A program made the translations under genes and the position numbers. Positions 481 to 51,727 of a stretch of DNA of 64,000 nt are shown here, in pieces (the stretch's first letter is position 1; each line of letters starts with the position of its first letter). This stretch comes from Leucosporidium creatinivorum (taxonomy: Eukaryota; Basidiomycota; Microbotryomycetes; Leucosporidiales; Leucosporidiaceae): the NCBI GenBank assembly GCA_001600635.1, contig BCKL01000007.1, positions 582,303 through 646,302 of the forward strand, written 5' to 3'. The notes beneath the pieces were generated by a model. The model saw nothing but the letters and a program-made list of their open reading frames with translations, did no database searches and was not told the DNA's origin.

Positions 481-1408
481 GCTCGAGCTCGTGCTCGTAC
501 TCGTACTCGCTTCCGTCGCTTGTTCTCCTTCTTCCCCCTCGCTTGACCCCCCTCGCTTGACCCCCCTCGCTTGACCCCCCTCGTAGCCACCCTGCGTCGC
601 GTTGCCGACCCGAATCGCTGTAGTGCTTCTACTCCTCTCCCTCGCTCACTCGCAATGCCATCCTACCCTTCGTCGTTCCCTCGTTTCCGCTCGGTTGATG
701 CTCGGCGAAGGGGAGATGTGAGCTTGGAGCTGCCAGAGAGGGTAGCAGCTCGGCGTACGAGGTTAGCTAAGCTACTCGAGTCATATTCGGCTTGCCCGCT
801 TCCTACCTCGCATGAAGGAAGGACCAGAGCGAGCTCATCTTCTTCGGCCGTTGCGAAGGGGGAGGCCTCTGGTCGCTGGCTTCTCGCCCGTCTGATGAGG
901 TCGCGGGAGGTGAGTTCGGGCCACCAGAGACTTCTGCGTCAAAGATCCGGCGCGATTTACTGGCTCGGCTCGTTCACACTGCATGAAGCGGGCCTGCTGC
1001 ACCTCAGCGAGCCCGCGAAAGCCATCGCCGAAGCCGAGCGGAGCGAGGTGCGAGAAGCTACTGCTTAAGTGTTGCGTTCAAGCATCCATCTTCGCCGATC
1101 TAGTACCATACACACCTCGCCTTCCATGTTTGACCGAATCGAGCCCAAGCTCAGCTCACACGCCAGCCTAATGAGGCAAGTCCACGCCGAGTCGCGCTGG
1201 GAGCGATCGCTCTTTCTTTCTTCTTCTCCCTATATCTACTCGTCTACATCACAGCAGCAGTCGTTCTCCCTCCCTCTTCTCTCTGGGTCACCTCAACGCC
1301 CCGACCCTCTTCTGCCCTCTAGCATCACCCCACCCACTCCAAGCTCGCTCCTCCGTCGAGCGCGTCCCTCTTGGCTCTCTCCTTCAACAGCTCTGGGAGC
1401 ATCCAACC
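481..1408. other. Intergenic region between phosphatase and Ser/Pro-rich gene
   Basis: About 0.93 kb with the 3' UTR of the phosphatase, the 14-bp tandem repeat, and presumably the promoter of the next gene. A TATATC stretch near 1230 lies about 180 bp before the next start codon and is followed by pyrimidine-rich DNA. The open frame at 571-1068 has no recognisable domain and I do not treat it as a gene. Confidence 0.5.
541..582. repeat. 14-bp tandem repeat, three exact copies
   Basis: Three head-to-tail copies of GCTTGACCCCCCTC just downstream of the phosphatase gene. The core GCTTGACCCCCC also occurs once in inverted orientation at 51811-51822. The function is unknown; it may be a simple slippage repeat. 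Confidence 0.8.
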
Positions 1409-3769
1409 ATGGCCCAACGGCTCTCCGTAGCCTCCACCTCCACCTCCACCTCATATTCATCCTCATCCTCAGCAAATCACGCAACCTACATCGTCCTCCA
1501 CCGCGAAGGGGAGCTGGGCGAGCTAGAAGATGCGCCTACCCCTTCGGGAGGGAAGGGCGCGCTCGGAGCTGGAGCTGCTACTGCAGGGGAGCAGGGACAG
1601 AATCGGAGAGCGCATTGGGTCAGGAAGGAGGTGGCTCTCAGGGTGGATATGAGGGATGCGGTTAAGGAGAGGGAGAGGAGGGCAGTTAGGAGCGAGGAGG
1701 AGCAGCGGCTGAGTGAGGAGCAGCTGCGAGAGCAGGAGGAGCAGAGGAGGAGCTATAAGGCTACAAAGGGACCGCCGACCGCGCCCACGACGACCAGCAA
1801 GGGCCACTCGAGGATTCGGTCCTTCTTCTCGGCCTCTTCTTCGAGCTCGAAACCTTCGCTCAAGGACAGCATCTCCGCTCCTCGTGCTGCATCACCTACC
1901 AACCTCTCTTCCTCTCGGCCCTCGTCACCAATCCACCGCCCCTCCCCTCCTCCCTCAGCACCCGAGCCCCGACCTCGGCCCTCCCATTCCCACTCCATTT
2001 CCTCTCCCCATGCTGTCCCTCCTCCGCCCAGCACTTCAGCTCCTCCAACAGTCAAATTTGCGCCCGCTCCCTCGCCGTCTAGCTCTCGCTCGCCGAGCCC
2101 GGTCCAGCCCAAGCCATTGTCGAGGAGACCAAGTTTACCGAACCTCGGCGCTCGGAGTCGGGATGACAGGGAGAGGGAGGATACAGCCGAGTCGACCAAG
2201 AGCGGAGCAGCAGGTGGAAAGATGGGCGGCTGGCTGAAACGGACACTGCGGAGCTCGCCCTCCTCCTCCCTCTCGCCCCCAACCTCAACTTCGCCAAGTC
2301 CGACCCTCGTCCAATCCCCTTCCTTCTCTTCCTCGTCCGCCTCCTCCCTCCTCTCCACTCCTCACGGATCTCCAACCCTCTCCATCCACCTTCCGCCTCC
2401 ATCTCGTCACCAAGGGCAGCCAGGGATCAAACGCCGCCCGTCCATACCCGAGACTGCATTCAAGGCTCTCTCTTCCTTCCTTTTGGCGCGGAGGGAGTCG
2501 ACCGAGGATGGCAAAGGGATGAAGAAGCGCCGGTCGTTTCTGAGGGACAAGGCAGAGGGAGGCGAGGCGCTGTCGGATGAGGAGTTGAGAAGCTGGAGGA
2601 AAAAGGGGGAGGGGGAGATGGAGGTGCTTGACAAGGAGGATGGGGAGGGAGAGCAGGGCGAGGAGACGGAGGAAGAGGTGAGGAGGTTGAGGAGAGGGCC
2701 GAGCGTGAGGAGGGATCAGGCGTTAGCGAACGATCGGGAAGGGAAGAGGAGCGGCTCGAGGGGAAGTCGGCGGTCGGTGAGTTGCTCTTTTCGCTCTCTC
2801 TGGTCCTCGCTAGCACTTGTTGACTTCAATGTTACACTACAGCGCTCCCCCGAACAATCAACCGACTCCCTCACTCCCCTCGCTACGCCAACCGACTCGA
2901 TTCCCCGCTTCCGCTTCCCCTTCGGTCTCTCCCTCGACTGTGCCCCTACGCCATCCACCACCGTCCCGCCATCCCCTACCACCATCTCCCTCCCCGACGA
3001 CATTGCCCTCTCCTTCCTCGCTGCTTCGGGGTACCTCGAGCTGACGGCGCGAGCAGCGGAAGCTACCAGTCCCGTCGCTCCTGCTGCTCGACCACGGTCG
3101 ACACCACCCCGCGAGGCAGTGGCAACAGCAGTCCCACTTGTTCCCGTCGCCCCGACTCGCCCGCCTCCTCGTCCGCGACGAACGACCTCGACTCGCCGAC
3201 CTTCTGCTGCCCCTTCGTCTTCCTCCTTCGACTCTCTCCCATCTCTCGCTTTCACCCCACCTCCTCCGCCACCAACACTAAACGGCGGCCTTCTCCCTCC
3301 ACCACGTCCCTCCCCCTCCGCCATCCGCATGCGCCGCGGCGACTCTGCCCCTTCGCTTTCCAACGCCGGTGGGCCGAACTTCTCGGCGACCTCTGCGCTC
3401 GGCTCGCAAGTCGATCCCGCGGCAGCAGAGATGAAGACGAGCACGAGTCCTGGTGGAGGAAGGAGGATCATCAGCTCGGAGGCGTGGGGGCAGGTGTCGT
3501 TGAGTGCGCAGACGGCGGGGCGAAGCAGGAGGGAGAGGAACAAGAGCGGTGCTGGAGAGTTGGGAAGGTGGGATGGTAAACAAGGGGGAGGAAGAGAGGA
3601 AGAGGAGCGGAAGAGGTTGGAGGCGGGGACTCTGGGGTCGAGCCAGCGGAGGAGTGGAAGGAAGGGCTCGGCGATGGGTGGGGAGGGGTGCATGTCGAGG
3701 GATGGGCGCGATAGAGACGAGAAGAGTAGGGGGATACTGCCTACTCCTCCGACGAGTCCGCTTGTCTGA
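1409..3769 (+). CDS. Ser/Pro-rich low-complexity protein, unknown function
   Basis: One long frame of 786 codons opened by an ATG in good context (CCAACCATGGCC). I recognise no family. The protein begins with a Ser/Thr run, then a charged helical stretch rich in Glu/Arg (about residues 80-110), then long Ser/Pro-rich disordered segments with basic patches and a repeated SIRSF/RIRSFF-like start of the disordered part. A likely intron lies at 2777-2842 (GTGAGT...TACACTACAG, 66 nt, phase 0); it is a multiple of three and stop-free, so both spliced (764 aa) and unspliced (786 aa) products are possible. Composition suggests a scaffold or cytoskeleton/bud-site type protein, but that is only a guess. 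It is convergent with the next gene. Confidence 0.7.
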   Translation: MAQRLSVASTSTSTSYSSSSSANHATYIVLHREGELGELEDAPTPSGGKGALGAGAATAGEQGQNRRAHWVRKEVALRVDMRDAVKERERRAVRSEEEQRLSEEQLREQEEQRRSYKATKGPPTAPTTTSKGHSRIRSFFSASSSSSKPSLKDSISAPRAASPTNLSSSRPSSPIHRPSPPPSAPEPRPRPSHSHSISSPHAVPPPPSTSAPPTVKFAPAPSPSSSRSPSPVQPKPLSRRPSLPNLGARSRDDREREDTAESTKSGAAGGKMGGWLKRTLRSSPSSSLSPPTSTSPSPTLVQSPSFSSSSASSLLSTPHGSPTLSIHLPPPSRHQGQPGIKRRPSIPETAFKALSSFLLARRESTEDGKGMKKRRSFLRDKAEGGEALSDEELRSWRKKGEGEMEVLDKEDGEGEQGEETEEEVRRLRRGPSVRRDQALANDREGKRSGSRGSRRSVSCSFRSLWSSLALVDFNVTLQRSPEQSTDSLTPLATPTDSIPRFRFPFGLSLDCAPTPSTTVPPSPTTISLPDDIALSFLAASGYLELTARAAEATSPVAPAARPRSTPPREAVATAVPLVPVAPTRPPPRPRRTTSTRRPSAAPSSSSFDSLPSLAFTPPPPPPTLNGGLLPPPRPSPSAIRMRRGDSAPSLSNAGGPNFSATSALGSQVDPAAAEMKTSTSPGGGRRIISSEAWGQVSLSAQTAGRSRRERNKSGAGELGRWDGKQGGGREEEERKRLEAGTLGSSQRRSGRKGSAMGGEGCMSRDGRDRDEKSRGILPTPPTSPLV

Positions 3770-15940: not shown

Positions 15941-18436
15941 ATGGCAGTCCAGCAAAAGAAGAAGCAGGACGCGGAACAGTCGAGCACTGTTGAGCAGGAG
16001 CAGGACGGAGAGCCCATCGTCTGGACCGAGCAGGAGGAGACTGCCATTCGTAGGTCGACGGACCGGCACTTGATGCCCCTGCTATGGGCGCTGTTCATGT
16101 AGGTCAATCGCTCAGCCTCTATGGTCTCGGCTGACCCTCGACGTGCTGCAGGCTGTCCTTTCTCGACCGTTCAAGTGAGCTTGCCTTCTTCCCCTTTTCT
16201 ACCCCTTCGCGAGCTGACCCCGCATCCCCGGCAGATATTGGCAGTAAGCTGCCGACCGGCGGACCTGAAGCAGACTGCAGTCGACCGAATTGACCTTTCG
16301 TACATCACAACAGATGCGAATACTGCTGGCATGTCCGACGACCTCGGCCTGAGCTCTTCCCAGTACCAAATGCTTCAGACGGAGTGTAGACTTCTCTACC
16401 GAGATACGAGATGGCTGACCAATCTCTTCTTTCAGTGTATTCTCGAAGAGCGTGACTTCGAACGACAACCAAACCATCCTCTTCATCGCCTTGTCGTTCG
16501 GAATGTCCCTGGTGGTCGTAGCATGGGCGTTCTTCCGAATCTGTGGTTCTGCCTTCAACCCGGCGGTTACTTTCTCTCTCTACCTGGTCGGGAATCTTAC
16601 TCTTCGCCGAGCACTGGCTACAGCAGCTGCACAGTTGCTCGGAGGCATTGCAGCTGCTGGAGCTGCTAAAGGACTCACCATTGGCGCGCTCAGCGTGACC
16701 AACACCCTCTCAGAAGGCGTCTCTATCGGTGAGATTGGCGCAGAGGACGTTTGTAGACATGCTGACCTTCCTCGTACGTCCAGGCCAAGGATTGGGCATC
16801 GAAACGCTGTGCACCTCCTTGCGGGTGTGCTATCGCCGAGCCTGATCCTCTCGCTCCAACTCCTCGTCGAACAGCTACGATGCTACTATGGAAGCGCTTC
16901 CCACCGCACATCTTTGTTGCCTGCCTCACCCTCGGCTGGGGAGGTCTCGCTCTCCTTCAAGCCTCGGCTACCAACTTTGGAGGTCTCGTCGCCCTTCGCC
17001 TCTTGCTCGGCGTGTGCGAGACCGCTTTCGCCCCTGGAGTCACCTATTACCTGTCGTTTTTCTACCGGCGTCGTGAGTGCCTCTTTGTCCCCGCGAAGGC
17101 CTAGTTAGGACGTCGGCGCTGCTCGAGTTCGGATCTCGGCGATGGCTTTGCGCCGAGGTCTACTTTCACAACGCTGACTCTCCACTTCCGCGACAGATGA
17201 AATCGGATTCCGTCAAGGCTTGTACCTCGGCGCAGCTCCCTTCGCCACCGCTTACGCTGGAGCTCTCGCCTACGGCCTCACTCACGTCAAGAACGCCTCC
17301 ATCGCCAATTGGAAGCTCCTCATGGCCGTCGAAGGCGCGCCCGCCATCCTCATGGTCCCCATCGTCTACTTCTACCTCCCTGATCAAGCTTCGACCGCAC
17401 ACTTCCTCACGCCTCGGCAGAGGGAGATCGCAGTCGCCCCGACTCGCCCGCGCCGAGGCGGATGGGAACAACGGCCGAGAGGGAGGCTTCCGGCTGAAGG
17501 GAGTCTTGGAGGGGTTCAAGGACCCCAAGGCTTTCCTGCAGGCGCTTCTCTACTCCTCCCTCAACGTCTCCTACAGCTCTCTCCCCATCTTCCTTCCCGA
17601 CCATTCTCACCGAAATGGGCTTCACCTCCATTCGCGCGCAAGGACTCAGCGCACCTCCCTACCTCGCCTCCTTCATCGTCGTCGTCACCGTCTCTTACCT
17701 TTCCGACAAGGTCCGCGACCGGTCCATCTTCATCATCCCCCTCTCCCTCATTGGCTTCGCCGGCTACCTCATCCTCGCCCTCTGCCAGACCACCGCCGTC
17801 CGCTACTTTGCCATCTACCTCTGCGCCTGCTCCATATTCCCTTGCATTGGATTGATGCTGCCATGGACGGCTAACATGCACGAGTAAGTCGAGTAGTGAG
17901 GAGCTGCCTGAGTCGAGCTGATCGCCGAAACTCCTTGCTCTCACTCGCCTGCAGGAACGACTTGAAGCGAGGAGCTGGCTTCCTCATCCTCAACATCATT
18001 CGGCAGTGCTCGCCCTTCTTGGTGAGTCGCTTCAGATTGACCCTACTTGCACACAGGTCGCTCGAGCGAGGCCGAACGACCGCTAAACCGCGCTCGACTT
18101 ACCTAGGGAACTCGCCTCTTCCCGAAAGCCGACGGGCCGTACTACGTGAAGGGAATGTCGGTCTGCGCAGGGCTCTTGCTTTTTGTTGCCGCCCTCGCCA
18201 CCTGCCTGCGATTGTATGTGCTCTTTCCCGCGGGGCCGAGCAATCTTCGGCGCTAGCGTCTCCTGTGCCGACTAGCTTCTCGACAATCGCTAACTCCTAA
18301 CAAGATGCTACACAGCTTGCTCATATACGAGAACAAGCAGCGCGACATCAAGTATGGCAAGGTGGAGGATCTCGGCGAGACCCCGGGCAACGACGAGACG
18401 ACGGGCGGCTCGAAGGCGTTCAGGTTCCTCCTGTAG
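15941..18436 (+). pseudogene. MFS transporter of the anion:cation symporter (Dal5/Tna1-like) family, disrupted
   Basis: Exons read as a classic fungal ACS-family permease: HLMPLLWALFM-LSFLDRSN-IGNANTAGMSDDLGLSSSQYQM (15941-16383, including exons of only 23 nt at 16152-16174 and 9 nt at 16235-16243), then, from 16875, LLWKRFPPHIFVACLTLGWGG and LSFFYRRH-EIGFRQGLYLGAAP (exons 16875-17072 and 17197 on), and a normal C-terminal end (exons to 17883, 17955-18021, 18107-about 18207 and 18316-18436; RGAGFLILNIIRQCSPFLG-TRLFPKADGPYY). The part coding for membrane helix 2 is missing and an aquaporin fragment (about 16441-16850) lies in its place. Two further +1 frame changes occur, near 17438 and near 17600. 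A full transporter cannot be made. A short chimeric product (MFS helix 1 joined in frame to the aquaporin piece and stopping near 16840) is formally possible. These permeases import nicotinate, allantoate or similar anions. Confidence 0.85.
16441..16850 (+). repeat. Partial aquaporin gene copy inside the MFS gene
   Basis: This segment reads SVTSNDNQTILFIALSFG, SAFNPAVTFSLYL, ... GVSIG, a 55-nt intron-like gap (GTGAGA...GTCCAG) and GQGLGIETLCTSLRVCY, equivalent to exon 3 and the start of exon 4 of the intact aquaporin at 19033-20520. The core 16482-16686 is identical to 19493-19697 but for one base in 205, while exon flanks on both sides are only about 84-85 percent alike and the intron is unrelated. 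It is a fragment with a single NPA motif and cannot form a pore. Its exact borders are uncertain by some tens of bases. Confidence 0.88.
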
Positions 18437-19032: not shown

Positions 19033-20520
19033 ATGCCCAACCAGTCTCGCCCAATCATCCGCTTCAGCAAGCCCGAGAGTCACGGACCAGGATGGGAGCC
19101 AACACCACCGCAGTCATATTATGAGCCGCGACGAAATTCGACTCTGCAGCCCGGCTCCTCGAGGCCTGCCTCGGTTCATGCTGCCCCTCGACCTCGCCCG
19201 AAGAAGGGTCTGGCTCGAGAAGTCATTCACGACATCCTGGCCAGCGTCGGCGAATTCTGCGGGACCGTGAGTAACCGCTGTTCAGCGAAAGCTCGGCGGA
19301 GATGAGAACTGACCGGCTTCCTTTTGCAGTTCATCTTCCTCCTCTTGGCTTTCCTCGGAGCGGCCAGTGCCGGATACAATCGTGGAGGAGACAACACTGT
19401 GAGTAGACCAGTCTTTGCCGACCGAATCTGAGCCTTTCGCCGACCGAGTCGTCTTCCAGAGCGTCACATCGACGGACAACCAGACGATCCTTTTCATCGC
19501 CTTGTCGTTCGGAATGTCCCTGGTGGTTGTAGCATGGGCGTTCTTCCGAATCTGTGGTTCTGCCTTCAACCCGGCGGTTACTTTCTCTCTCTACCTGGTC
19601 GGGAATCTTACTCTTCGCCGAGCACTGGCTACAGCAGCTGCACAGTTGCTCGGAGGCATTGCAGCTGCTGGAGCTGCTAAAGGACTCACCATTGGCGAGT
19701 TCAGCGTGACCAACACTCTCACAGATGGCGTCTCCATCGGTAAGATCAAATCTCGGCGCTCTTTCGGCGCAGAGGCTACGCTGAGTCTTCTCGAACTCTT
19801 TAGGGCAGGGACTTGGTATCGAGCTCTTCACAACCGCCTTGCTCACCTTCACTGTGTTGATGACCGCTGCTGAGAAGTCAAGGACCACCTTTTTAGCACC
19901 GGTGGCAATAGGGTTGAGTCTCCTGATCGGGCATCTTGCCAGTATTGGATGGACTGGTGCTGGTGAGTACTGAAAGATTGTATCTCGATGCGACGTGCGC
20001 AACGTGGCGAGGCTGACCCTTTGTCTCGTCGTGCAGGAATGAACCCAGCTCGTTCGCTCGGTCCTTCAGTGGTCATCGGCTCCTTCCCCAAATACGCCTG
20101 GCTGTACGTTTTAAGGCTCGTTTATGTCCTTCAAGTTCAAATCTGACCTCTCTGGTGTCCCACAGCTACTATGTAGGGCAGTTCTTGGGCTCGCTGGTCG
20201 CGACGCTGCTGTACATCCTTCTCAAGCACCTCGATTGTGAGCCGTCCTCAGAGACTACATGGTCAGAGGTTCCCCTGCCGGAAGACGATCACTGACCTTC
20301 ATTGCTTCACGCAGACGAGGAGGTTGTCGCCGACATCGACACCGACAACGCCGACGATTCGGCTGCAGGGATCCATAAAGCTCCAGCCGTCAACCTTATC
20401 AATGCCATACCCGGAATGCATGCTGGAGGAGGACTTGAGGATCCCGAGGTGCAGGCGGAGGAGCGGGAGGAGCAGCGCCAGTGGCAGAAGGAGGAGGATC
20501 GCGCGACTCGGCAAGTTTGA
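19033..20520 (+). CDS. Aquaporin / aquaglyceroporin (MIP family)
   Basis: Seven exons (19033-19266, 19330-19398, 19460-19739, 19804-19962, 20037-20103, 20166-20236, 20315-20520), introns 61-78 nt, all in phase; 361 aa. Both pore motifs are present: SAFNPAV (NPA at residues 138-140) and GMNPARS (NPA at 250-252), the second followed by the usual Arg of the selectivity filter. Hydrophobic segments fit six membrane helices (for example FIFLLLAFLGAASAG, ILFIALSFGMSLVVVAWAFF, FLGSLVATLLYILL). A cytosolic N-terminal tail of about 75 residues and an acidic/Gln-rich C-terminal tail flank them. The Arg after NPA2 and the small loop residues suit a water channel, but glycerol transport is not excluded. 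Exon 3 shares a 205-bp near-identical tract with the fragment in the upstream MFS gene. Confidence 0.9.
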
Positions 20521-25907: not shown

Positions 25908-28689
25908 TCATCGCTTGCCGTTGCCCAAGACGGCCTCGGTCTTGACGAGAACCTCCTCCCACTCCTTCGCAGCGTCCGAGAGGTGAGTGATGGCGCCTCC
26001 AGCTCCCAGTGTCAGCTCTGTGGGAGAGGAGAAGATGAATTAGAAGAAGGTAATGATCGCTGAGAGCGTAAGAGCTCACCATTGCCTTTGATGACGAGCG
26101 TGCGAATCACGACCGAGAAGTCGGTCGTCCCGTCGACGGCCACGAAGCCGAATACGCCTACAGAAAGGGGTCAGCGCTAGTAAAGGAGTTAAAACAGAGA
26201 TTGAGCTAACCTGAGTACACTCCACGAGGTCGGTGGCCCTCGAGGTCTTCGAGCAGCTTGAGCGATCGCAGCTTCGGCGCTCCGGTCATCGAGCCTGGTG
26301 GCGGAAGAGAGTGAGTTGATGTACGCGAGAAAGGAAGTGAGGAAACTCACCTGGAGGGAAAGCTCGGCCAACAGCCTCGAAGGGGTTGACGATGGGGGTG
26401 AGGGTGCCGACGACGCTGGTGACGAGCCTGTGAGAAGCGAGCAAGTCAGCAGGAGCTCGGACGAGTGAAGTCAGAGTGAAAGCTCACTGATGAACCGTCT
26501 GGTAGCTCTCCACAACCATTAACCTCGGCACTTGTACACTCTCCACCGAGCAAAAGCCGAGCAGGTCATTCCGAGAAAGGTCGACGATCATGAGGTTCTC
26601 GGCGCGCTCCTTCTCGTCGGCCTCGAGTGCCTCCTTCCTCCTCTGATCCTCCACTGGGTCATCCGAGCGTCTCACAGTACCCTTGATCGGCTTCATCTCG
26701 GCATGTCGGTCCTTGTCGATGCGGATGAAGCGCTCGGGCGAGGAGGAGAGGAGGGACACGTTGGAGCGTGGAAGGTGGAAGTAGTAGGAGTAAGGAGCTG
26801 GGTTGGCTGCGCGCAGTGAGAGGTAGAGAGGATAAGGGTCCTCGGCGACAGACGAGGGAATGGTGGTCCGGAACTGTGTAGTCATGCACAGCTCGTAGGC
26901 ATCGCCGGCGATGATGCTCTCGCGAGCGTTCTCGATGGCGGCCATGTACTCGTCGCGGTTGAGGTCAGGGACGAGCCCAGTGATCGCTACTGGTCCCGCT
27001 GGTGGCGGCGAAGGTTCGGCGGTCCGCTCGGCGTCCAGGAAGGAGCGCACCTTGGCCAACCAGGCTTCCCACTTCTCCTCCCCAACTCCGAGCGCCTCCA
27101 GCAGCTCCTCGCCTTTCTCAACACCGCCCTCGACCCTGACCAATCCCGTAGCGACCCAAGTCTCCTCCTCGTGCGAGTAAGTGAGCACGAGGGTCGCGAG
27201 CGCGAACTCTGAGTCGATCCTCTGTTCCTCCTTGGCAGCTGTCGGCGACTTGCAAAGCGGCATCGACACCTCCTTCATCTCGTATCCGAGGTAGCCGACG
27301 AAGCCGACGGGAACGGATGGGCGAGCGGGGTCGGCGATGCGAGTTCGGCGATGGAGAGTCGCTTGAGCGGTAGCCAAGGTGGTGTTGAAGGTGTGAGGGG
27401 GTTCGATGTAGCGAGTCGAGTTAGAAGGGGTGGAGTATATGGACGAGCGGATGGTGATAGTGTTGCCTGGCCGAGTGTGAGTCCAGGTCGCTTGCGGGTT
27501 GAGGAGATGAGTGAACTGAGGGGCGCCGGTGGGCTGCGACCGAGAGCTGGGGTCAGCTGAAGAGCTCGTACGACCAACGAGCACCGTCTTTACCCTTGCA
27601 GAATCCAGCCACACCTCTCCTAGCGGATTGGCGCCCTTCACGAAGCCCTCGAAGACCTCCCTCGGCGATCGTCCACGCCCCGCTCCCAGGTCGACGCTCC
27701 GCTGCTCCCATCGAAAGCTCGACGAGCCTTCGGGAACGTCGGGTATCGGATTTGGGTGCTCCCTTGTGTATGATGTGCTGTGGGAAAGGACGCTCGAGGG
27801 GAGAGGAAGGGAAAGGTCGAGCGGCCGAGGGGAGGTTTCGTAGTGGGAAAGGGCGAGCGAGAGGAAGTTGGAGAGAAGGGTGGCGCCGTGGGTTGAGGCG
27901 ATGGACTGGAGAAGCACCAAGACCTCAGCTACGGCTCGAAGGTGAGGATGTAGATCGAGTTCACCTCCGGATGGTACTGCACACCCCACAGCGGTTTCTC
28001 TCGATGCCTGAGGCCGAGAATCTCCTCCTTGCCCTTGTTGGTCGCCCATGCGATAGCGTCCAGCTCTTCTGGCAGCGACGAAGAATCGACGGTGAGACTG
28101 TTGTACTGCACGGCATCGTAGGGGCTGGGGATGCCAGCGAAAAGGGGATCTTGCGAGTGCCGAACTTGGGTGATCTGCCCGTGCCGAGGTGCAGCCGCCT
28201 TGACGACCTGTAGAAAGCAAGGCATTGAGCTGAGATAGCATTTCAAAGAGCCAGCTTGACGTGCCGAGGCTCCAAAGGTGGTAGCTAGCCCTTGATGGCC
28301 GAGGCAAAGACCGAAGATGGGTAGGCTGTCTCCGAACTCTTGGATAAGCCTCGCCGGCCAGGAGAAATCGCTCGTCTTATGCGGTGACCCAGGTCCTGGT
28401 CCCAAGATGACACAGGCGACGTGAGGGAGGATCTCGAGGACGAATTGATCCCTGGGAGTGGGGGTAAACAAGCTTTAGCTGTTGCTGTAGGCGATGCGGA
28501 GCGCGCGCAGGCTCACCAGGAGATGGTATCGACATTCACTATGACTACCCGCTGCTTCCAGCCTGTTGGATCCCATCGAGCGCCGCTTGGAGGCGATTCG
28601 ACGATTTGAGAGAAAGTCGCGAGGAGGTTTCTGGTGTAGGAATCGTGGTGCTCGAGGACTAGCGTCGTGGGAAGCGGTGTAAGCGCCAT
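25908..28689 (-). CDS. ABZ1: Aminodeoxychorismate synthase, fused PabA-PabB
   Basis: Nine exons (28689-28517, 28451-28265, 28207-27965, 27905-27594, 27533-26488, 26427-26351, 26294-26211, 26157-26080, 26017-25908) in phase; 769 aa. The N-terminal third is a glutamine amidotransferase: LEHHDSYTRN, GPGPGSP, GLCLGHQ (nucleophile Cys) and VQYHPE (His-Glu). The rest is the chorismate-binding part: VPVGFVGYLGYEMK, AYELCMTTQF, SSSPERFI, MKPIKGT, DLSRNDL, SMTGAPKLRS and GAGGAITHLSD. The enzyme makes 4-amino-4-deoxychorismate for p-aminobenzoate and folate. Intron 2 (28264-28208, 57 nt) has no in-phase GT; the best boundary is a GC donor. Intron 4 (27593-27534, 60 nt) is stop-free and a multiple of three. 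Confidence 0.92.
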
Positions 28690-31881: not shown

Positions 31882-34800
31882 ATGCCCAACAGGGGACCGC
31901 CCACCGCTTCGGCTTCGGCTCTGGCTCGAGCCAACGCCAAACAGGCTTCACTCGACGCCTCGCTCGCCAACCAGTATCGCAGAGCGGGAGCACCAGGCAA
32001 TCGCTTCGTAGGAGTGCGAAGAGCAGGAGACGGCGGTCCAGTGTGAGTCTTGAGCTCTGCTACAGCTTGAGGCTGCTCCGTCTTACGAGCCCGCACCGCG
32101 TGAGAAGCGGCGTAAGCCGAAGGGATTCGCATCACTTCGGCAGAGCGTGCAGAGGTGCAGAATCGAACAGAAGCTGACCTCTGTACATTCCGCACTCAGC
32201 CATAATGGCATGTACGACACAGAGGACGACCCCGACCGACTCTACTACTCGCGCGGTCTGGGAGGACTCGACAGCGATGAGGACAGCGGAGACGACGATA
32301 GTGTAGGGATGGGAGATGGAGACGATGGATGGGGAGATGATGATGTGAGTGCTACTGGGCCAGAGTGCTCGCGCCAGCCGATCGCTGACCTCTCGACCCA
32401 TCGCAGAACAACCCTCTCGACAATGAGGACGACGACGACGATGCTCAGCCTGGACGACCAGCAACCCTCCGCACCACCTTCTACCAACCTCCCGCCGTCT
32501 CCTACGACCTCGCCCCACCAGGCTTCGTCGAGCCAATCGAGGACCCCACCTCCGGCAGCGAGGACGAAGGTCCCGAGGTCACCGACCGCTTCGAGTGGCA
32601 GCACATGCTGTCAAACGTACTCCAAGGAGACGTCCTCAAGAGCGAGAAGACCCGCCTCTCCACCGCCAGTCTCTCCACCACCACCAGCCTCACCAGCGGC
32701 TTCATCGGCGGCGGATTCGCTTCGGGCGGCACGAACAGCGGTCGGCGGCAACGAGCATACGCCATCTGGCTGCTCATTCGAGCCAAGATTCGCGGACGAA
32801 GCCCCGAGGAGGAGAGTCGTTACCTGGAGGAGGCCCGAGCCAAGGTCGACGAGGTGCTCGACGAGGTCCTCAAGTTCCAAGTCGTCGACCTGGTGCCACC
32901 AGAAGGCGCCCCACCCATCTCGGAGGAGATTTGCCAACGAAACGCAGCGGACCAGGTCGCGAGTCTACTACGGCGCGTTGACTGGTGCGAGAGCCTCTAC
33001 CCGTCGCGAAAGGCGCTCGCTCTCGAGAAGGACCGAGTTTCCAACCTCGAGATTGTGCAGCGGATCGACGCCCTTCGGTCATGGCAGCAGATTACTCGCC
33101 GGCTCAAGCTCCGAGTGGGCATCCTCAAGATTTGGACGGGAGACGAGTGGGAGATGCTCTCGGCGCCGATGTACAAGAAGTTCGATCCCGCCACCGCACC
33201 AGCAGGCGCAGAGCGAGGATTCGTCGCCAACATCGTCCGCGAGGACTCGCTGCAGGATACCTTCAAGAAGCGTCTACTTTCGGACGTCTACTCGCTCGTC
33301 CTCATCGTCAAGTCGGCCATCATCGACCTCTCCCCCGACTTCGCCGCCATGAACCTACCAGGCTTCGCCGCCGATCTCCACCGCCTCGCCATCTTCCCCT
33401 CGCGTCTCGCCCAAGAAGCCCTCCGCAATATCCTCGAATCCGTATCCAAGGTCGACGACCCATCCGTCGTCCTCATCGATCAGCTCACCGCCGACCTGCG
33501 CAAAGGCCTCGAATCCGCCTGCGAGGTCAAGAAGCAGTACCTCGAACTCGCCGACGCCGACCCCGTCTCGGACTGGACCCTGCCCGAACGAGTCGAGGAG
33601 TACGAGGAGACGATGCTCGCGACGCTGCGGTTCTTCTTCAAGCTCCTGCATTGGAAGCTTAAGAGTCCGAGCAAGGCCATTTACTTCAAGGAGACGGAGA
33701 TTGTCGAGAACGAGTGGAGCTTCCTCTCGGCCGTGACGGAGCAGATTGAGGAGGGAGACTTGCTCGTCGGGGAGCACTTTTGGTGAGTCGCTCGCTTTCG
33801 GTCTTCGTACTCAGCTGACTCTAATCCCCTTTCGCAGCACCCTCACCCATCGCCTTCTCGTCCGAGTCATGAGCTACTTCGAGACCCAACTGCAGGTCCT
33901 CGAGACTCGCGACATGACCGTCCAAGAGATGCTCCGGTGGTTCAGCCAAACGCTCGACAACGTCCGAGCACGGCATCGCAAGCTGCTTCGTTTCGGAAAG
34001 TGAGTGTTGCTGTAGCTTCTCGTCTCCGGTTCAGCGCGCTGACCTTAAACACCCGCGCTTTGCAGGAGCATGCTCACTCGCTTCGAGAACTCGGCAGAAT
34101 ACCACCTCGACAACATCGACCTCACCGCCTTCATTAACGCCCTCGTCGCCTCCGACCACTTCATGATCTACACCGGCACCTTCGAGCGCGAGGGCATCTA
34201 CATGATCGGCGACCCCTCCCTCCACGAACGCCCTCACCTGGTCCGCCATATCCTCGCTCGCTGCTTCAGCAACAACACCCAATCCGACCACGTCGTCGAC
34301 TACGAGGACAGCCTGCACTACGTCCTCATCCTCTCCCCTCGCGACCCCTTCATGTGGACCGGCCGCGTCATGAACCTCGAGCTGCCGAAACTCGAGCTCG
34401 ACCTTCGCGACAAGCGCGTTCGCCTCGTCGCCGATGGACCCTCCATTCGCCTCATGCGCTCCAAGCAGATGTTCGTCGACCTCTTCCCTCGCTTCCGCCA
34501 CAACATCATCATCGAGCAGAAGGCCCATCTCGCTCGCGTTAGTCGCGAGATCAAGAAGATCGGACGTGCCATCTTCCGTCTCGCCGAGACGATCCTCGGC
34601 TCGGTCGACCGAGTTCGCGCCGTATCGAGGAGGACGCCCGAGTCGGGTCAAGAGCTTGTCGGCAGCTACTTCTCCTTCGCCGCCGATCTCGGACAGCGCT
34701 CCATCAAGTACCTCGAGCCGGCCGTACGGAGTCGCTACGTCCTCATGCTCATGAAGTTCGCCATCTCCTGGATCGCCTTCATCTGCGACGACTGCGTTCC

Positions 34801-36600
34801 CACCGACCCGAGGACGTTCAAGTGGGCCGTCGCTGCCCTCGAATTCGCCATGGCCATCACTCGCGGCGACAACATCCTCAAGTTCTCCTCGGACGAGTTC
34901 GCCCTTCTTCGGACCAAGGTCGCCAGCTGCATGACGCTCCTCATCTCGCACTTCGACATTCTCGGCGCGAGGTCAAGCCAGGAGGCCAAGAAGGAGCAGG
35001 AGCGGATCGACGCTGCGCGAGTGCAGATGAAGGAGCAGCTGCAGAAGCGCTTCGCGGCGCTCAAGGGCGGAGTACGGCCATATGAGGCGTACCAGGAAGC
35101 AGGAGCGGACGACGACGAGTGGCGCGAAGGATGGGGGTTGGAGAGCGTCGGCTCGCTGCAGGATGCGTGGGAGCAGCGTGTTCTCGCGCTCGAGGATCTG
35201 GATCGCACCCGAACGGAGGTCGAGTCGAGCAACCGCATGGTCGGTCGAGTCCTCGACAAGGAGACCGCCGAGGACAACGCCCTCGCCTTCCTCGCCTCAT
35301 CGTCCTCCAACATCTCGATCCGCTGGCAGCAGGGCAAGTTCATCGGAGGAGGAACGTTCGGTACCGTCTACCTCGCCGTCAACCTCGACTCGGGAGAGGA
35401 GCTCGCCGTCAAGGAGATTCGGTTCCAAGCCCTCGCCTCGGCGCCGCACCTCATCAAGACTGTTCGCGACGAGATGAAGGTTATGGAGATGCTTCGCCAC
35501 GAGAACATCGTCCAGTACTACGGAATCGAGGTCCACCGCGACAAGGTGTACATCTTCGAGGAGTATTGCCCCGGTGGCAGTCTCGCCAACCTCCTCGAGC
35601 ACGGCGCCATCCAGGACGAGATCATCATCCAGATCTACGCCCTCCAGATGCTCTCGGGACTCGTTTACCTTCACTCGGAGAACGTTGTTCATCGCGACAT
35701 CAAGCCCGATAGTGAGTTGTCTCCGCTTCTCCGCTGATCGCCCTCGCTGACCTCTCGCCCCCCTCGCGCAGACATCCTCCTCGACGCCAGCGGCACCATC
35801 AAGTTCGTCGACTTCGGAGCCGCCAAGGTGCTCGCCAAGGGACAGAAGACTCTCGCCGGTCGAAGTCGCATGGGACCCTCACCAGTCCCCGCCGTCGACG
35901 CCGGAGGCCTGCCAGTTCCCGGCGCGGACCAGAACTCGCTCACGGGAACGCCCATGTATCTCAGTCCCGAAACGGTAAAGGGAGAGCGGAGGGGAAAGAA
36001 GGGTGCGATGGATGTATGGGCCGTCGGCTGTGTGATCCTCGAGTGCGCGACGGGACATCGACCATGGAGCAACCTCGACAACGAGTGGTGAGTGTCGGCT
36101 ACTTTCATACCGTTTCGAGCTTCTCGTTGACCTCTTTCGCACACAGGGCCATCATGTTCACCATCGGAATCGCCTCCCAGCACCCTCCACTCCCCAACTC
36201 AAGCCAGCTCTCCGAGCTCGGAATCGCTTTCCTTCGCGAGGCGCTCACCATCGACCCCGAGGACCGCCCTTCCGCCGCCGAGCTCATCAACCACCCCTGG
36301 ATCCAAGATGCTCGCGATCAGCTCACCGCCATGAACGAGGAGGAGGCCGACCCCAACGCCCGATCTTCAGCAACGTCGTCGTCCTCGTCGAGCCGGAGCA
36401 ACGCCGTCAGCTCGCTGGGCACCTCGTCGCTCGGCAGCATGGCCCCTGGGACGGTGCTCGAGGAAGAGGAGGAGCAGGAAGGAGATTACGAAGCTTATGA
36501 GGGAGAGTACGAGGAGGATGGGGTCGTGTACGAAGAAGGGGAGCAAGGGGAAGGGCAGGAGGGCATCGCCGAGGAGGAGGAGCCCGAAGAGGACGCTTGA
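31882..36600 (+). CDS. SSK2: SSK2/SSK22/Wis4-type MAP kinase kinase kinase
   Basis: Seven exons (31882-32042, 32200-32344, 32407-33782, 33838-33999, 34066-35711, 35772-36087, 36147-36600), in phase; 1419 aa. The N-terminal 1000 residues carry the long family-specific regulatory region (for example RRVDWCESLYPSRKALALEK, LLRFGK-SMLTRFENSAEYHLDN) that in yeast binds the response regulator Ssk1. The kinase domain starts near residue 1035: GGGTFGTVYLAVN, AVKEI (Lys), HRDIKPDN, FVDFGAAK, GTPMYLSPE and DVWAVGCVILE, and ends in HPWIQD. A Glu-rich acidic tail follows. It heads the HOG stress MAPK cascade. An insertion of about 25 residues lies between DFG and the activation-loop GTPMYLSPE, as in other fungal Ssk2 proteins. 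The first intron (157 nt) is longer than usual and could hide a small alternative exon. Confidence 0.93.
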
Positions 36601-42789: not shown

Positions 42790-43081
42790 GAGCTCGGCGT
42801 TTCGTCGCTCTTCGCCTCCGACACAAGGCCGCCATCTCTTTCGATAGCCCTGATCAAGAACCAGGCGCTCGGCAATTGTAGCTTTGCCTCTTCGTAGTAC
42901 AGTGCTCAGACAAAACTACCACGCCATGGGCGAGGAGATCGAGAAGCTTCTGTTCGGCGATGTGTTTGTGGCGGCTCGCTTCGCTGCAACGGGAGCGTGA
43001 GAATCGAAGGAATGCGGTATATGATACTTTTGGTAAGACGCTAATGCTACAGCTCGTCGATCTAAGTTATCGTGACCTCGA

Positions 43082-45584
43082 CTAGATTCGCTCGCGGACC
43101 CATCCCTCGAGTCCACCGGCTGCGGGAGCGGAGGAGCGAGAGGAAGGAGGAGATAAGCGAGAGGGAGAGCAAAGCCAGGCGAAGAGAAATAAGCGGAAAG
43201 GAGGGGGAGGAGAGAAGAGTATCAGCGAACCAAACTCGACCGCTTCGCCGAAAGGAAGGAGAAGGCTCACCCAACCACAGCTCCTGCACACTGGTACCGA
43301 CCTTGCCGACCTTGTACTCCTTGATGATCTCGCCTCCCTCCTCCGTCCTGACGGTGACCTTGCCATCCCCACTCCCGACCTCGACCCAGTAGCCCGTCTG
43401 CACCGTTCCCTTCCCATCCTTTCCTCCAGCATTCCGCTTGCCCTCCTTGCCAAAGTCCTTGGTCAGATCCTCGATCAGCTCGGGGCACTCGACGCAGATG
43501 AGGGCGTTGTTGATCGAGTTGCGCTTGAAGATGTCGCCGAAGGAGCCGCAGAGGACGAGGGGCACTCCCGAGGAGAGGAGAGCGGTGGCGGCCTGCTCGC
43601 GCGAAGAGCCGGTTCCGAAGTTGTAGCCCGAGGCGAGGAGGACTCCCTTGCCGTTCCTGTCGGTCGACGAGGACTTGAGGGAAGCCATGAGAGGAGCGAA
43701 CGCGGTGTCGTAGTTCTCCATCACGACCTCGGCTTGACGGGCGAGGGTGATGTCGTCCTGGTAGGTGTACTTGCCGGGGTAGATGCCGTCGGTGTTGAGG
43801 TTGTCCTGAGGAGCGAAGAGGAGAGGTCCAGCAAAGATGGGAGGGAAGGAAGGGAGGAGAGCCTCGGCGGCGGGTGCTGCTGAGTCGGCAACGGCGGGGG
43901 CAGGGGAGGAAGTGGCAGTGTGGTCGACGATGGAGATGGTAGGGTTGGAGGCGGAGGGAGTGGCGCCCTCGACCTTGGGTCCGCAGATGTGGCCGGCGAT
44001 GGCACTGGCAGCGACGACCTCGGGAGAAGCGAGGTAGGCGAGAGCGTTAGGAGATCCCATGCGACCCTTGTAGTTCCTGTTAGTAGCCGAGATTCCGACC
44101 TCTCCATCCTCGAGCAATCCGACTCCGAGACCGATGCAAGGTCCACATCCTGCCGGCAGGACCTTGGCTCCCGCCGAGACGAGAGTCGCCCAGTCTCCAG
44201 CCGCCTCGGACTCCTTCTGCACGACCGAGGAGGCGGCAGCGATGTAGAACTCGACTCCGGGGGCGAGCTTCTTGCCCTTCATGACGTCGGCGGCGGCCTT
44301 GAGGTCGGAGGCGCGCGAGTTGGTGCACGAGACGAGGTAGGCCTTGTTAATCTTGACCTTCTGCTCCTCGAGGGCGGGTAGGGGAGTGGCGACCTTGACC
44401 GAGTTGGGTCCAGCGACGGAGGGAGAGAGGGAAGGAAGGTTGAGAGTGAGGGTCTTGGAGTAGGTGGCTCCCTCGTCGGCGAGAATGGGGTTGACGAAGA
44501 CGGACTTGAGGCGCTCGGTGGTGAGCCGGGGGTGAGGGGTGTCGGGGAGGGAGGAAGAGGCGCCGGCGAACTGGAAGCGACGGAGCTCGAGCTTCTTGAG
44601 CTGGGAAGCGTACCACTCCTCGAGGACCTTGTCGACGGGGAAGACACCGACGAGAGCTCCCCACTCGGTGGTCATGTTGGCGATGGCGAGGCGCTCGTCG
44701 ACGCTGAGCTGGGCCACTCCATCGCCGCCGAACTCGATAGCGTGGTTTAGAACCTCATCCTTGTTGAAAGAGCCGCAGAGAGCGATGATGATATCCTTGC
44801 CCGTTACGCCCTTCGGCAGGTCGCCCTCGAGATTGACCCGAACGATGGGCGGGACCTGCCACCAAGTGCGCTGAGTAGCCCACAGAGCGGCGGCGTCGGT
44901 CCTGTGAGATGTTGGATAGTCAGCGAGAGCTTCTCCTGCACCTCCAAGCTCTCTCCACTCACCTGACGATAGCCGTTCCGACACATCCGACTCCACCGTA
45001 CATGTTGGAATGGCTGTCCGAGGCGACCGTCATGACGCCAGGGAAAGCGTAACCCTCCTCAATCATGATTTGGTGACCGATCCCACGTCCAGCGGGGTAG
45101 AAGTCGACCTCATGCTCGCCTGCGAAGGCCTCAATACGAGCGTACTTGGCCAAGTTGGCCTTAGAGCGGTTCTGCACGTCGTGGTCGAGGGTGAAGACGG
45201 TTTGACGCGGGTTCGAGATCGTGGTAGCTCCGATGGACTTGAACCTGTTGCAAGAGGGTCAGCTAAAGCGAGCAGCGGCGAAAGCAGCGAGAGGAACGCA
45301 CTTGGAGATGACGGGTCCCGTGTTGTCCTACAGCGGGCTGAGCATCAAATCTGATTCTATCTACAGTGCTACAGCGAACTACTCACGTGAGTCATGACAT
45401 GCTGAGGCTTGATCATAACGTAGTCTCCCGCCTTGACAATCGCTCCCTCAGGCAATCCTACTGCATGGCGTTGCACAACCTTCTCGACGTAGGTCTGTGG
45501 TAGTGCGGTAGGTGTAGCGAGGTAGCGGCGTAATGAAGGGGCGGCCAAGCGCGAGGTGAGGGCTCGCGAGCGGAGAGAGAGCAT
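43082..45584 (-). CDS. LYS4: Homoaconitase, mitochondrial (lysine biosynthesis)
   Basis: Five exons (45584-45387, 45327-45302, 45244-44963, 44901-43271, 43119-43082) in phase; 724 aa. The second exon is only 26 nt. An Arg/Ser/Ala-rich N-terminus without acids ([20 protein letters not shown]) is a good mitochondrial presequence. Family features: [73 protein letters not shown], and the [4Fe-4S] cysteines in VSCTNSR and PAGCGPCIG. The swivel part has [13 protein letters not shown]. It converts homocitrate/homoaconitate to homoisocitrate in the alpha-aminoadipate pathway. The final intron (151 nt) is long and the last exon adds only [12 protein letters not shown]; if it were retained, a longer unrelated tail would be read. 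Confidence 0.92.
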
Positions 45585-48983: not shown

Positions 48984-51727
48984 TCAATCCGAGTCCGACA
49001 GCACAAGCTCCTCGACCCTTCCCTTCCCCGTGCTCTTCGGCAAAGCCGCACCTTCACTCCCCGCCTTCCCCTTCTGCATCCCTCCCCCCGCCTTCGCCGA
49101 CTCGCGAGCCTCCCGACCCTTCTTCAACGCCTGATCCAGCGACAGCAACAGCTCCTCCTCCTCCGACGAGTCGATAGAGATGGACCTCGACTTGGCGCTG
49201 GTGCTGGTGCTGCTCTTGGCGAGTGAAGAAGAGGTGCGAGCGAGCTTCGAGGTCGAGGGTTTGGTCGAGGAGAAGCCGAGGCGGCCGGCGGTCGAAGGGG
49301 CGAGGAGGGAGGGGGGTTTGGGGATGCGAGCGGCGGAGGAGGAGGAGGTGCGCGACGGAGCGGGAGTGGGAAGTGCGGCGGCGGCGGTCGAGGCGGAAGC
49401 GGGAGGGAAGACGAGCCTGCCGAGCTTGTTCGGCGAAGGTAGGTCTTCCTCATCGGAGGAGATCTCGAGATATGTCGTCTGCTGGGCTGTGACGGCGACG
49501 GTACTCTTCTTCTTCTTGGTGGTTTTGAGGGGCGAGGCTTGCGCCTTACTCTTCCTGGGCGATTTGGGCGGAGGGGGAGCGCGGGAGTCGTCGTCGGTGT
49601 CGGTCGCAGAGGCGGCGGAAGTGGAAGCGGTGGAGAGTGGTCGACGACGAGGTGCGGTGGGCTTGGGCTTGGTCTTGGATGGTCGAACGATGGGTGCTGG
49701 TACCTCCTCCTCGGTGCTCGTCACTGTCGCATCGCTATCCACCTGCTTCCCTTGGCCCTTCCCCTCCCTCGCCACACCAGCCTTACTGCTCCCCGCCCAC
49801 CCACTCACCACCGCCCTCACCTTCCCACCCTTCTTCCCCCTCCTCTCCTCCTTTTTCTCCCTCTCCCCCTCCCACTCCCCCACCAGCTCCTTCCCCCTCC
49901 CATCCGCTTCCACCAACTCCCTCGGGATCCACCACCGCCAAGCCCCCACACCCTTCGCTTCCTCCACCTTCTTCACGCGGCGACCTACGACCTGCATCTC
50001 CGAGTCCGAAGGGATGGGGAACGGGTCGGGCGAAGGGAGGTGCGAGGTGATGAGCTGGTGAAAGTGGGTGGTGGAGAGTTGGACGCGGTAAGAGGCGAGA
50101 TGTCTAGTCGAGGTCGAGGTCTTCAGGTCCGAGATGGAGTCGAGGAAGGGCGCTGCCGAGGAGGGGGGGAGCGGACGAGGGATGGAGCTGCTGTCGAGGA
50201 GGAGGAGGGCCGATTTCCGGAGAGCCGACATGGCGAGGCCAGGGTAGAGGAGGTTCCTCCCATACATTTCAATCTCGGCGTTGCTCCACTCGAACGTCTC
50301 GGAGAGGTAGGCCATCAACTCGGGCACCCGGGGCTCGGCGTCCCAACTCGGCGGCTCGAGGTGGTGGTTGGAAACGGCGGGATGAGTGTAATAGTTGACG
50401 ATCCTCAAATCGGGGAACTCGGTGTCCGCCTCGAGTTCCTGCGCGAGCTTATGCTTCTTGGTCGCCAGCTTGCCCCTCGAGTTGGTCCTCAACTCTTCGA
50501 CGACGTCCTTTCTCCATCCCTTGATGAACCTCCTCAACTCCTCTGCATCCCCCTTATGTTCCTCCACACCCTCCACCAATCTTGCTCCAAACCCGCACAA
50601 ACTCAAAGCCACAGCCGTCTTGATGCCCACATTCTTCATGCCCGTGGCGTAATCCCCGCCCGACAGCAAGGCGCAGAAGATGAGGTCCGCGACGGCGAGC
50701 CCGGGCCCCGCTTCGATGGCGTCGAGGTAGAAGAGTTTGTGGGCGTCCGGGTGGATCGGGTGGTGGGCCGGTTGCGAGGATTGGGATGAGGGGGGCAGTT
50801 GAGAGGAGGAGGAGGGTTTGGTCGGCGAGCGAGGAGGTTGTTGGGAGGTGGAGGGAACGGCGGAGGAGGATGAAGCGGAGTGGAGAGTGTTGCGGACGAC
50901 CTGGTGAGAGGAGAAAGAGGGGAGTGTAGAGCGTGAGTAGGCGAGCTCGGCGATGAGCTCTCGGTTCGGCTCGGCGCTCGCTCGCTCACCAAAGGCGCGC
51001 CAAAGAGGAGGGTATCGACGTCGTCCTGTAGGTGAGCCATCCATCAGCTCGAGTAAGTAAACTCTGTCACTGGACCGCACTATACTCACCGTAAGCACCC
51101 CATCAATCTCGCCCCTCCTCGCACACGCCGCCAACTCGGCCTCCGCCTCGCCCTTCGCCGTCCTCCAGGGCATGCCCATCAAATCGAGCAGCTCCTTGAA
51201 CGGTTTATCTTTACCATTCTTCCACCCTCCCCCTCCGCCTACATGCTTCCCTCGCTTCCAAGCGGGCTTGTCGGCGCCATCAAAGACGAAGAAGGGGAGG
51301 ACGTTGGAGCGGAGGAGGGTGAAGAGGCGGAAGAGGAGGACGCGGAGGTCGGCGTTGCTGTTTGTGGTTAGTATGAGAGGTCAGTTATGCTGTAGACTGG
51401 GAGCTCAACAGCCCGCCCTGCAGCTGAGCAGAGCTCAGAGCTTCAGTCAACCCCCGCCTCTCTGAACAGGCGACTTACATGCCTACTTGCTCGCCCGGTG
51501 TTTCGAGCTTGCGGGCGTGCTGTAGCAGAGGGGATGTTAGGTCTCTCTCCCTCTCCCTGCTCATTACAAGCGAGTCAGCAACTCACAAACAACCAAATGG
51601 AAGCGTCGCAACCCAAGCGAACTGCACGCACAGTCGGTTGTGTATGGAAGGCTTCCATCGAGAGGCCTAAGAGGGTGTTGTACTGTGCTGCATCGTTCAA
51701 CTCTCCCCACAGCAAGGGTACTCCCAT
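48984..51727 (-). CDS. PIN/XPG (Rad2/GEN1-like) structure-specific nuclease
   Basis: Exons 51727-51587, 51519-51479, 51357-51090, 51025-50990 and 50900-48984, in phase; 800 aa. N-terminal block: MGVPLLWGELND, GCDASIWLF, FFVFDGADKPAWKRGK. Internal block: GEAEAELAACARRGEIDGVL-TDDVDTLLFGA, then LLSGGDYATGMKNVGIKTA. These are the metal-binding acids and the helix-hairpin-helix start of the Rad2/XPG family; the overall plan (MGVxxLW, RVGCDASIW, and a long disordered C-terminal tail with SSDEE motifs) fits the basidiomycete group often annotated as PIN domain-like, near GEN1/Yen1. Yen1/GEN1 cut Holliday junctions; whether this protein does is unproven. The tail is rich in Ser/Pro/Lys and has possible phospho-motifs (TYLEISSDEED). 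It has a degenerate tandem copy downstream. Confidence 0.85.

Follow-up and report, generated by a model that had tools for sequence, protein, structure and literature searches.

In intron-mediated exon shuffling, the joints lie in introns and the exons are compatible in phase. For Saccharomyces eubayanus, a working chimeric MFS transporter is reported to have arisen from two transporter genes by ectopic recombination (PMC6448821). For Caenorhabditis, a review states that surviving conversion tracts tend towards 50–200 nt; it mentions one study in which conversion falls with distance over 1–8 kb and cites a human study in which closeness was without effect on conversion (PMC3966223). In the literature on gene conversion, exon shuffling or replacement and aquaporin/MFS chimeras, no case such as the one described here was found among the matches listed, as judged by titles and the beginnings of abstracts. 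The processes themselves (ectopic recombination, interlocus gene conversion and pseudogenisation) are known, and the locus is a new instance and a good case of them, not a new kind.

The 64 kb stretch of DNA analyzed here, referred to as the window (C7:582303-646302; genome of 27.7 Mb in 63 contigs), harbors a DAL5-like MFS transporter gene at 15941-18436 on the plus strand, from which helix 2 is missing. As in S. eubayanus, a fungal transporter gene appears to have been altered by ectopic recombination inside its coding region; unlike that case, in which both parents were transporters and the product works, the insert here is derived from a family of channels unrelated to the host, which appears to be broken. 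As in intron-mediated exon shuffling, the host joints lie at or near introns, and the missing MFS exon would be of phase 1-1; unlike in such shuffling, the phase of the inserted piece does not match the host on the right-hand side, and there is no readable full-length product. As in interlocus conversion in Caenorhabditis, a short near-identical tract is found on one chromosome, in the same orientation and a few kb from its partner. Unlike in the paralogue cases described there, one of the two copies consists of a gene fragment that sits within a gene unrelated to it, and the organism appears to be a fungus.

Taken as a whole, the following account is judged fairly probable. A piece of a diverged third aquaporin gene (exon 3, an intron, the start of exon 4 and the adjoining intron) would have taken the place of a short exon for helix 2 in the MFS gene and would be joined to the host at or close to introns. 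The intact aquaporin gene lies 3 kb downstream, and recent interlocus gene conversion would have homogenised a tract of about 205 nt with it. The insertion would bar a full-length transporter, as the splice from the fragment into the MFS gene is out of frame and is followed by two +1 frameshifts, and would have left a young pseudogene. The locus is a compact example of exon movement between unrelated genes, with little decay of the host, joints at or near introns and a source gene of which no copy turned up in the assembly.

Anatomy of the Transporter Locus

The following features were recognised.

15941-16385, plus strand: 5' part of the MFS gene with helix 1; open reading, GT..AG introns, no lesion seen
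about 15941-16098, 16152-16174, 16235-16243 and 16314-16383 or 16385, plus strand: 5' exons of the MFS gene; open reading, GT..AG introns
16384-16435, plus strand: intron before the insert with a CTGACC site; donor at 16384 (phase 2) or 16386 (phase 1)
16449-16728, plus strand: homologue of aquaporin exon 3; open, with the first NPA box (Pfam MIP, 1.1e-14, and alignment)
16482-16686, plus strand: putative gene-conversion patch; over its 205 nt, it differs at 1 position from 19493-19697 in the intact aquaporin
16729-16783, plus strand: intron at the same site as intron 3 of the neighbouring aquaporin; GTGAGA..CTGACC..CAG
16784-16824, plus strand: homologue of the start of aquaporin exon 4; GQGLGIETLCTSLR versus GQGLGIELFTTALL, 9/14 residues; 17/42 nt differ
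16825-16874, plus strand: intron-like stretch, GTGTGC..CCTGATC..AACAG; MFS coding sequence resumes directly after the AG
16875-18436, plus strand: remainder of the MFS gene; its frame is shifted by +1 near 17440 and again near 17600
about 16875-17072, 17197-17883, 17955-18021, 18107-18217 and 18316-18436, plus strand: 3' exons of the MFS gene
19033-20520, plus strand: intact neighbouring aquaporin gene; 7 exons, 361 aa (Pfam MIP, 7.3e-44)

By its motif layout, the host gene is a candidate member of the DAL5 family. This family comprises fungal anion:cation symporters (PMC2329640). When four pieces of the host were scanned separately, two matched MFS_1 (PF07690) with 19.7 and 18.9 bits (E-values of 4.4e-4, for the exon after the insert, and 7.8e-4), both below the curated cut-off of 33.4 bits. 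The transporter locus contains 10 introns or intron-like stretches of 50–124 nt, and in 8 of these CTGAY or CTAAY lies 19–37 nt before the end. The gene structure gives the impression of a fungus, perhaps a basidiomycete; a search for 5.8S rRNA gave no match.

The MFS reading continues through ...GLSSSQYQMLQT until 16383 or 16385, with SSSQYQMLQT preceding the insert, and is taken up again with MLLWKRFPPHIF... from 16880. The preliminary description had the MFS gene reading normally on either side; this holds for the sequence next to the insert, but further downstream the open frame shifts by a single-base +1 near 17440 and again near 17600 (both positions approximate). Exactly where the MFS exon resumes, an 8-nt near-tandem repeat is found (16875-16890, CTACGATG CTACTATG), which is possibly a repair scar.

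The fragment is part of a 289 nt repeat (16447-16735 and 19458-19746; 95% identity, offset 3011), and no other match was listed when the window was compared with itself by BLAST at E ≤ 1e-10. In a DNA search of the 27.7 Mb, the repeated sequence was present at 2 places only, both on C7. The fragment thus lies on the same strand as the intact aquaporin and 3,011 nt away, in agreement with the orientation and the distance of about 3 kb given before. Its match to MIP (PF00230), called at 16449-16727, reached 55.2 bits against a cut-off of 25 and covers profile positions 37-125 of 222 only. Automatic annotation could easily call the locus an aquaporin or a chimeric transporter.

Right of exon 3, the likeness to the neighbour is lower. 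The intron 16729-16783 could not be aligned significantly with the introns of the neighbour (p = 0.126). For the exon-4 piece, a comparison at the nucleotide level only gave p = 0.01 (500 shuffles), or 0.056 with more flank. The stretch 16825-16874 has a weak donor (GTGTGC), and its branch-like site lies 33 nt from the end, farther than in most introns of this locus. Further aquaporin sequence was sought on both sides and rejected: left of 16449, local alignments were weak or similar to shuffles (p = 0.044 and 0.778), and right of 16824 they were similar to shuffles (p = 0.29 and 0.35). The joints fall within 16384-16448 and 16825-16874, ranges to which the breakpoints are located. Since intron-like sequence lies at or beside both joints, the term exon replacement fits the anatomy.

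The Missing Helix 2

The MFS exon after the insert has relatives at 9 other places in the genome (33–43% identity). Six of these were read by eye, and helix 2 was present in all six. Together with the repeat and the Pfam MIP match (1.1e-14), this bears out the earlier claim that an aquaporin piece sits where helix 2 of the transporter belongs. In three relatives (L017, L018 and L020), as judged by eye, a phase-1 intron sits approximately where the host has its intron before the insert; donor 16386 thus fits their intron position. Very short exons within helix 2 were seen by eye in two relatives (L022 and L019). Splicing from donor 16386 to 16875 preserves the MFS frame, which fits a lost phase 1-1 exon; from the relatives, its length is estimated at about twelve codons.

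A helix-2 pattern made by the authors did not match any of the three plus-strand frames of 16384-16880. A hidden helix-2 exon inside the insert was also considered and rejected, as none of 9 phase-preserving candidates of 18–75 nt resembled helix 2. The best candidate by eye (16757-16777) lies inside the aquaporin intron, which MAFFT paired with the neighbour's intron; the local alignment of this pair is not significant (p = 0.126).

Uneven Divergence from the Intact Aquaporin

The inserted piece had been described as equal to the aquaporin. This was not confirmed: near identity is confined to 205 nt, whereas the flanks, the intron and exon 4 are much diverged. Within exon 3, 1/205 positions mismatched in the core and 13/75 elsewhere (Fisher p = 1.8e-7, with the core limits 16482-16686 chosen by eye). 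The longest mismatch-free run was 169 nt, which was equalled in 6 of 200,000 permutations; when only third positions were considered, the run was equalled in 18 of 200,000. At shared residues, third bases of fragment and neighbour were equal at 67/69 positions in the core block and at 17/28 in the flanks.

A core that is inherently conserved was ruled out by means of other aquaporins of the genome. Third bases of the neighbour equalled those of the aquaporins on C19 and C17 at 24/68 positions in the core region and at 14/30 in the right flank; thus, the core is not frozen by itself. An over-long tract of identity is flanked on both sides by diverged homologous sequence. Uneven divergence of this kind is the usual mark of interlocus gene conversion; in the simplest case, the intact aquaporin would be the donor. 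A conversion tract of this kind would mislead any dating of the event by overall identity.

The same figures bear on the reading that the neighbour's exon 3 to exon 4 was recently copied, in a single event, into the MFS gene. Such a copy would account for the common strand, the distance of 3 kb, the near identity over 205 nt and the intron site at 16729, which is common with the neighbour and absent from C19 and C17. Even divergence would be expected of it, however, and the exon-3 flanks (13/75) and exon 4 (17/42) depart far more from the neighbour than the core (1/205), so that this reading is considered very unlikely.

An assembly or polishing artefact, in which a wrong join was made or the core falsely homogenised, was weighed as well. 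The core is of short-read length, as an artefact of this kind could produce. Against this, neither of the joints, which are found at two different places, falls within the near-identical core, and the order and strand of the MFS parts are preserved. Moreover, 22 codons are changed outside the core, 12 of them silently and 10 not, and this silent share is above the expectation for random error. Nine regions inspected elsewhere in the genome were free of frame errors (see below). An artefact is hence regarded as highly improbable, and the account of replacement and conversion is retained.

Source of the Fragment

At least 14 stretches of the genome matched the MIP family: two genes or fragments on C7, and others on C19, C17, C6, C15, C23 and C1. 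The aquaporin paralogues of this one genome (C19, C17 and the neighbour at 19033-20520) differ in their intron positions. An intron directly after ...TALL is present in 2 of the 4 other aquaporins read (C19, L005; C17, L006) and is absent in those on C1 and C6 and in the neighbour. The intron-like stretch 16825-16874 of the fragment begins within 1 nt of this post-TALL intron. A set of GT, branch site and AG within 1 nt was found at 0.8% of window positions, with limits that were fixed after 16825-16874 had been seen. Conversely, the intron at 16729 (after VSIG) is common to the fragment and the neighbour and occurs in none of C19, C17, C1 and C6.

Because of the uneven divergence and the intron-like stretch common with C19 and C17 and absent in the neighbour, we infer a third aquaporin as the source. 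In the simplest account, this would have been a sister gene of the neighbour that carried both introns and is now gone or missing from the assembly. The argument draws on one intron-like stretch with a weak donor and, beyond the core, on 116 nt of exon sequence. The same two observations speak against a direct exchange between the two neighbouring genes as previously proposed, of which the replacement itself still agrees with the anatomy.

In one query each, the aquaporin fragment gave 69 pattern matches in viral_contigs and the MFS piece 137 in genome_contigs, none of which was confirmed.

Reading Frames and Loss of Function

How the fragment is read depends on the donor used. Donor 16384 puts the aquaporin piece in frame with MFS helix 1, as had been predicted before; with donor 16386, the prediction fails, and the frame ends after 93 residues. 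Starting from donor 16384, the frame ends after 204 residues if the last intron remains unspliced; if this intron is removed, the reading enters the following MFS exon out of frame. Hence, the right splice is out of the MFS frame, and the insertion is not open and phase-compatible as in exon shuffling.

The reliability of the two downstream frameshifts was examined in conserved genes. From 30 and 33 matched stretches of an HSP70 and actin-family search, 9 regions were picked (three HSP70 genes and one actin-family gene), and every break in frame was an intron; one actin-family and one HSP70 joint that resembled frame errors turned out to be introns. As only introns were encountered, the frameshifts near 17440 and near 17600 are probably real, although they could be assembly errors. 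With helix 2 missing, an out-of-frame splice and two +1 frameshifts, the MFS gene is, as far as can be judged from sequence, most likely a young pseudogene.

In this context, a functional chimera or splice variant was considered, i.e., a product of about 200 aa combining helix 1 with aquaporin helices, or removal of the insert as a 489-nt intron. The left junction can be read in frame and without a stop for 204 residues, and skipping of the insert preserves the MFS frame into the next exon. However, once the fragment has been passed, what is left of the MFS gene is in the wrong frame and carries two more frameshifts; the chimeric product would be only part of either fold. A functional product is accordingly judged extremely unlikely, and the locus more probably represents what gene shuffling left behind than a new protein that works. 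Also improbable is a fuller version of the replacement itself: two unrelated families of membrane proteins would have exchanged an exon, both joints would lie in introns, and the missing exon would be a phase 1-1 micro-exon. The locus would then have been caught soon after the event, would still be exchanging sequence with the intact aquaporin by conversion and might still be transcribed into a short hybrid that combines MFS helix 1 with half of an aquaporin.

Age of the Disruption

Five MFS stretches (342 codons, without the small 5' exons and those that start at or after 17955) contained 0 stop codons. In 2,000 simulated runs of neutral drift, 342 codons remained free of stops in 72% of runs at 1% divergence and in 17% at 5%, and this value fell to 3.7% at 10% and 0.25% at 20%. 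In comparison, third bases at shared residues differed at 11/28 positions between the fragment flanks and the neighbour. The stop-free stretches thus make the disruption look younger than the split of the fragment flanks from the neighbour, within wide limits. This order of events, in turn, supports a source gene that had diverged before the insertion.

The simulation also bears on an old copy of the neighbour's ancestor, where the neighbour later lost the post-TALL intron and one patch was recently converted. Patchy identity and intron pattern would both be explained in this way without a third gene. More decay should be visible in an old copy, however, given the low stop-free fractions at 10% and 20% divergence and the 11/28 differing third bases in the flanks against little decay of the MFS gene. 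An old copy is consequently held to be unlikely, and insertion of a fragment from an already diverged third aquaporin is preferred.

Other Features of the Window

Over exons 2–4 of the intact aquaporin, an antisense open frame of 244 codons was found (19331-20065, minus strand), which is probably a by-product of G+C-rich coding. Two long open frames, 1175-3766 (plus strand, 864 codons) and 48987-51380 (minus strand, 798 codons), had no Pfam match at E ≤ 0.001. The other genes noted in the window are ordinary: an anthranilate synthase component I-like gene (26487-28376, minus strand), a protein kinase (34049-35734, plus strand), an aconitase-family enzyme (43065-45029, minus strand) and a patatin-like phospholipase (61575-63218, minus strand).
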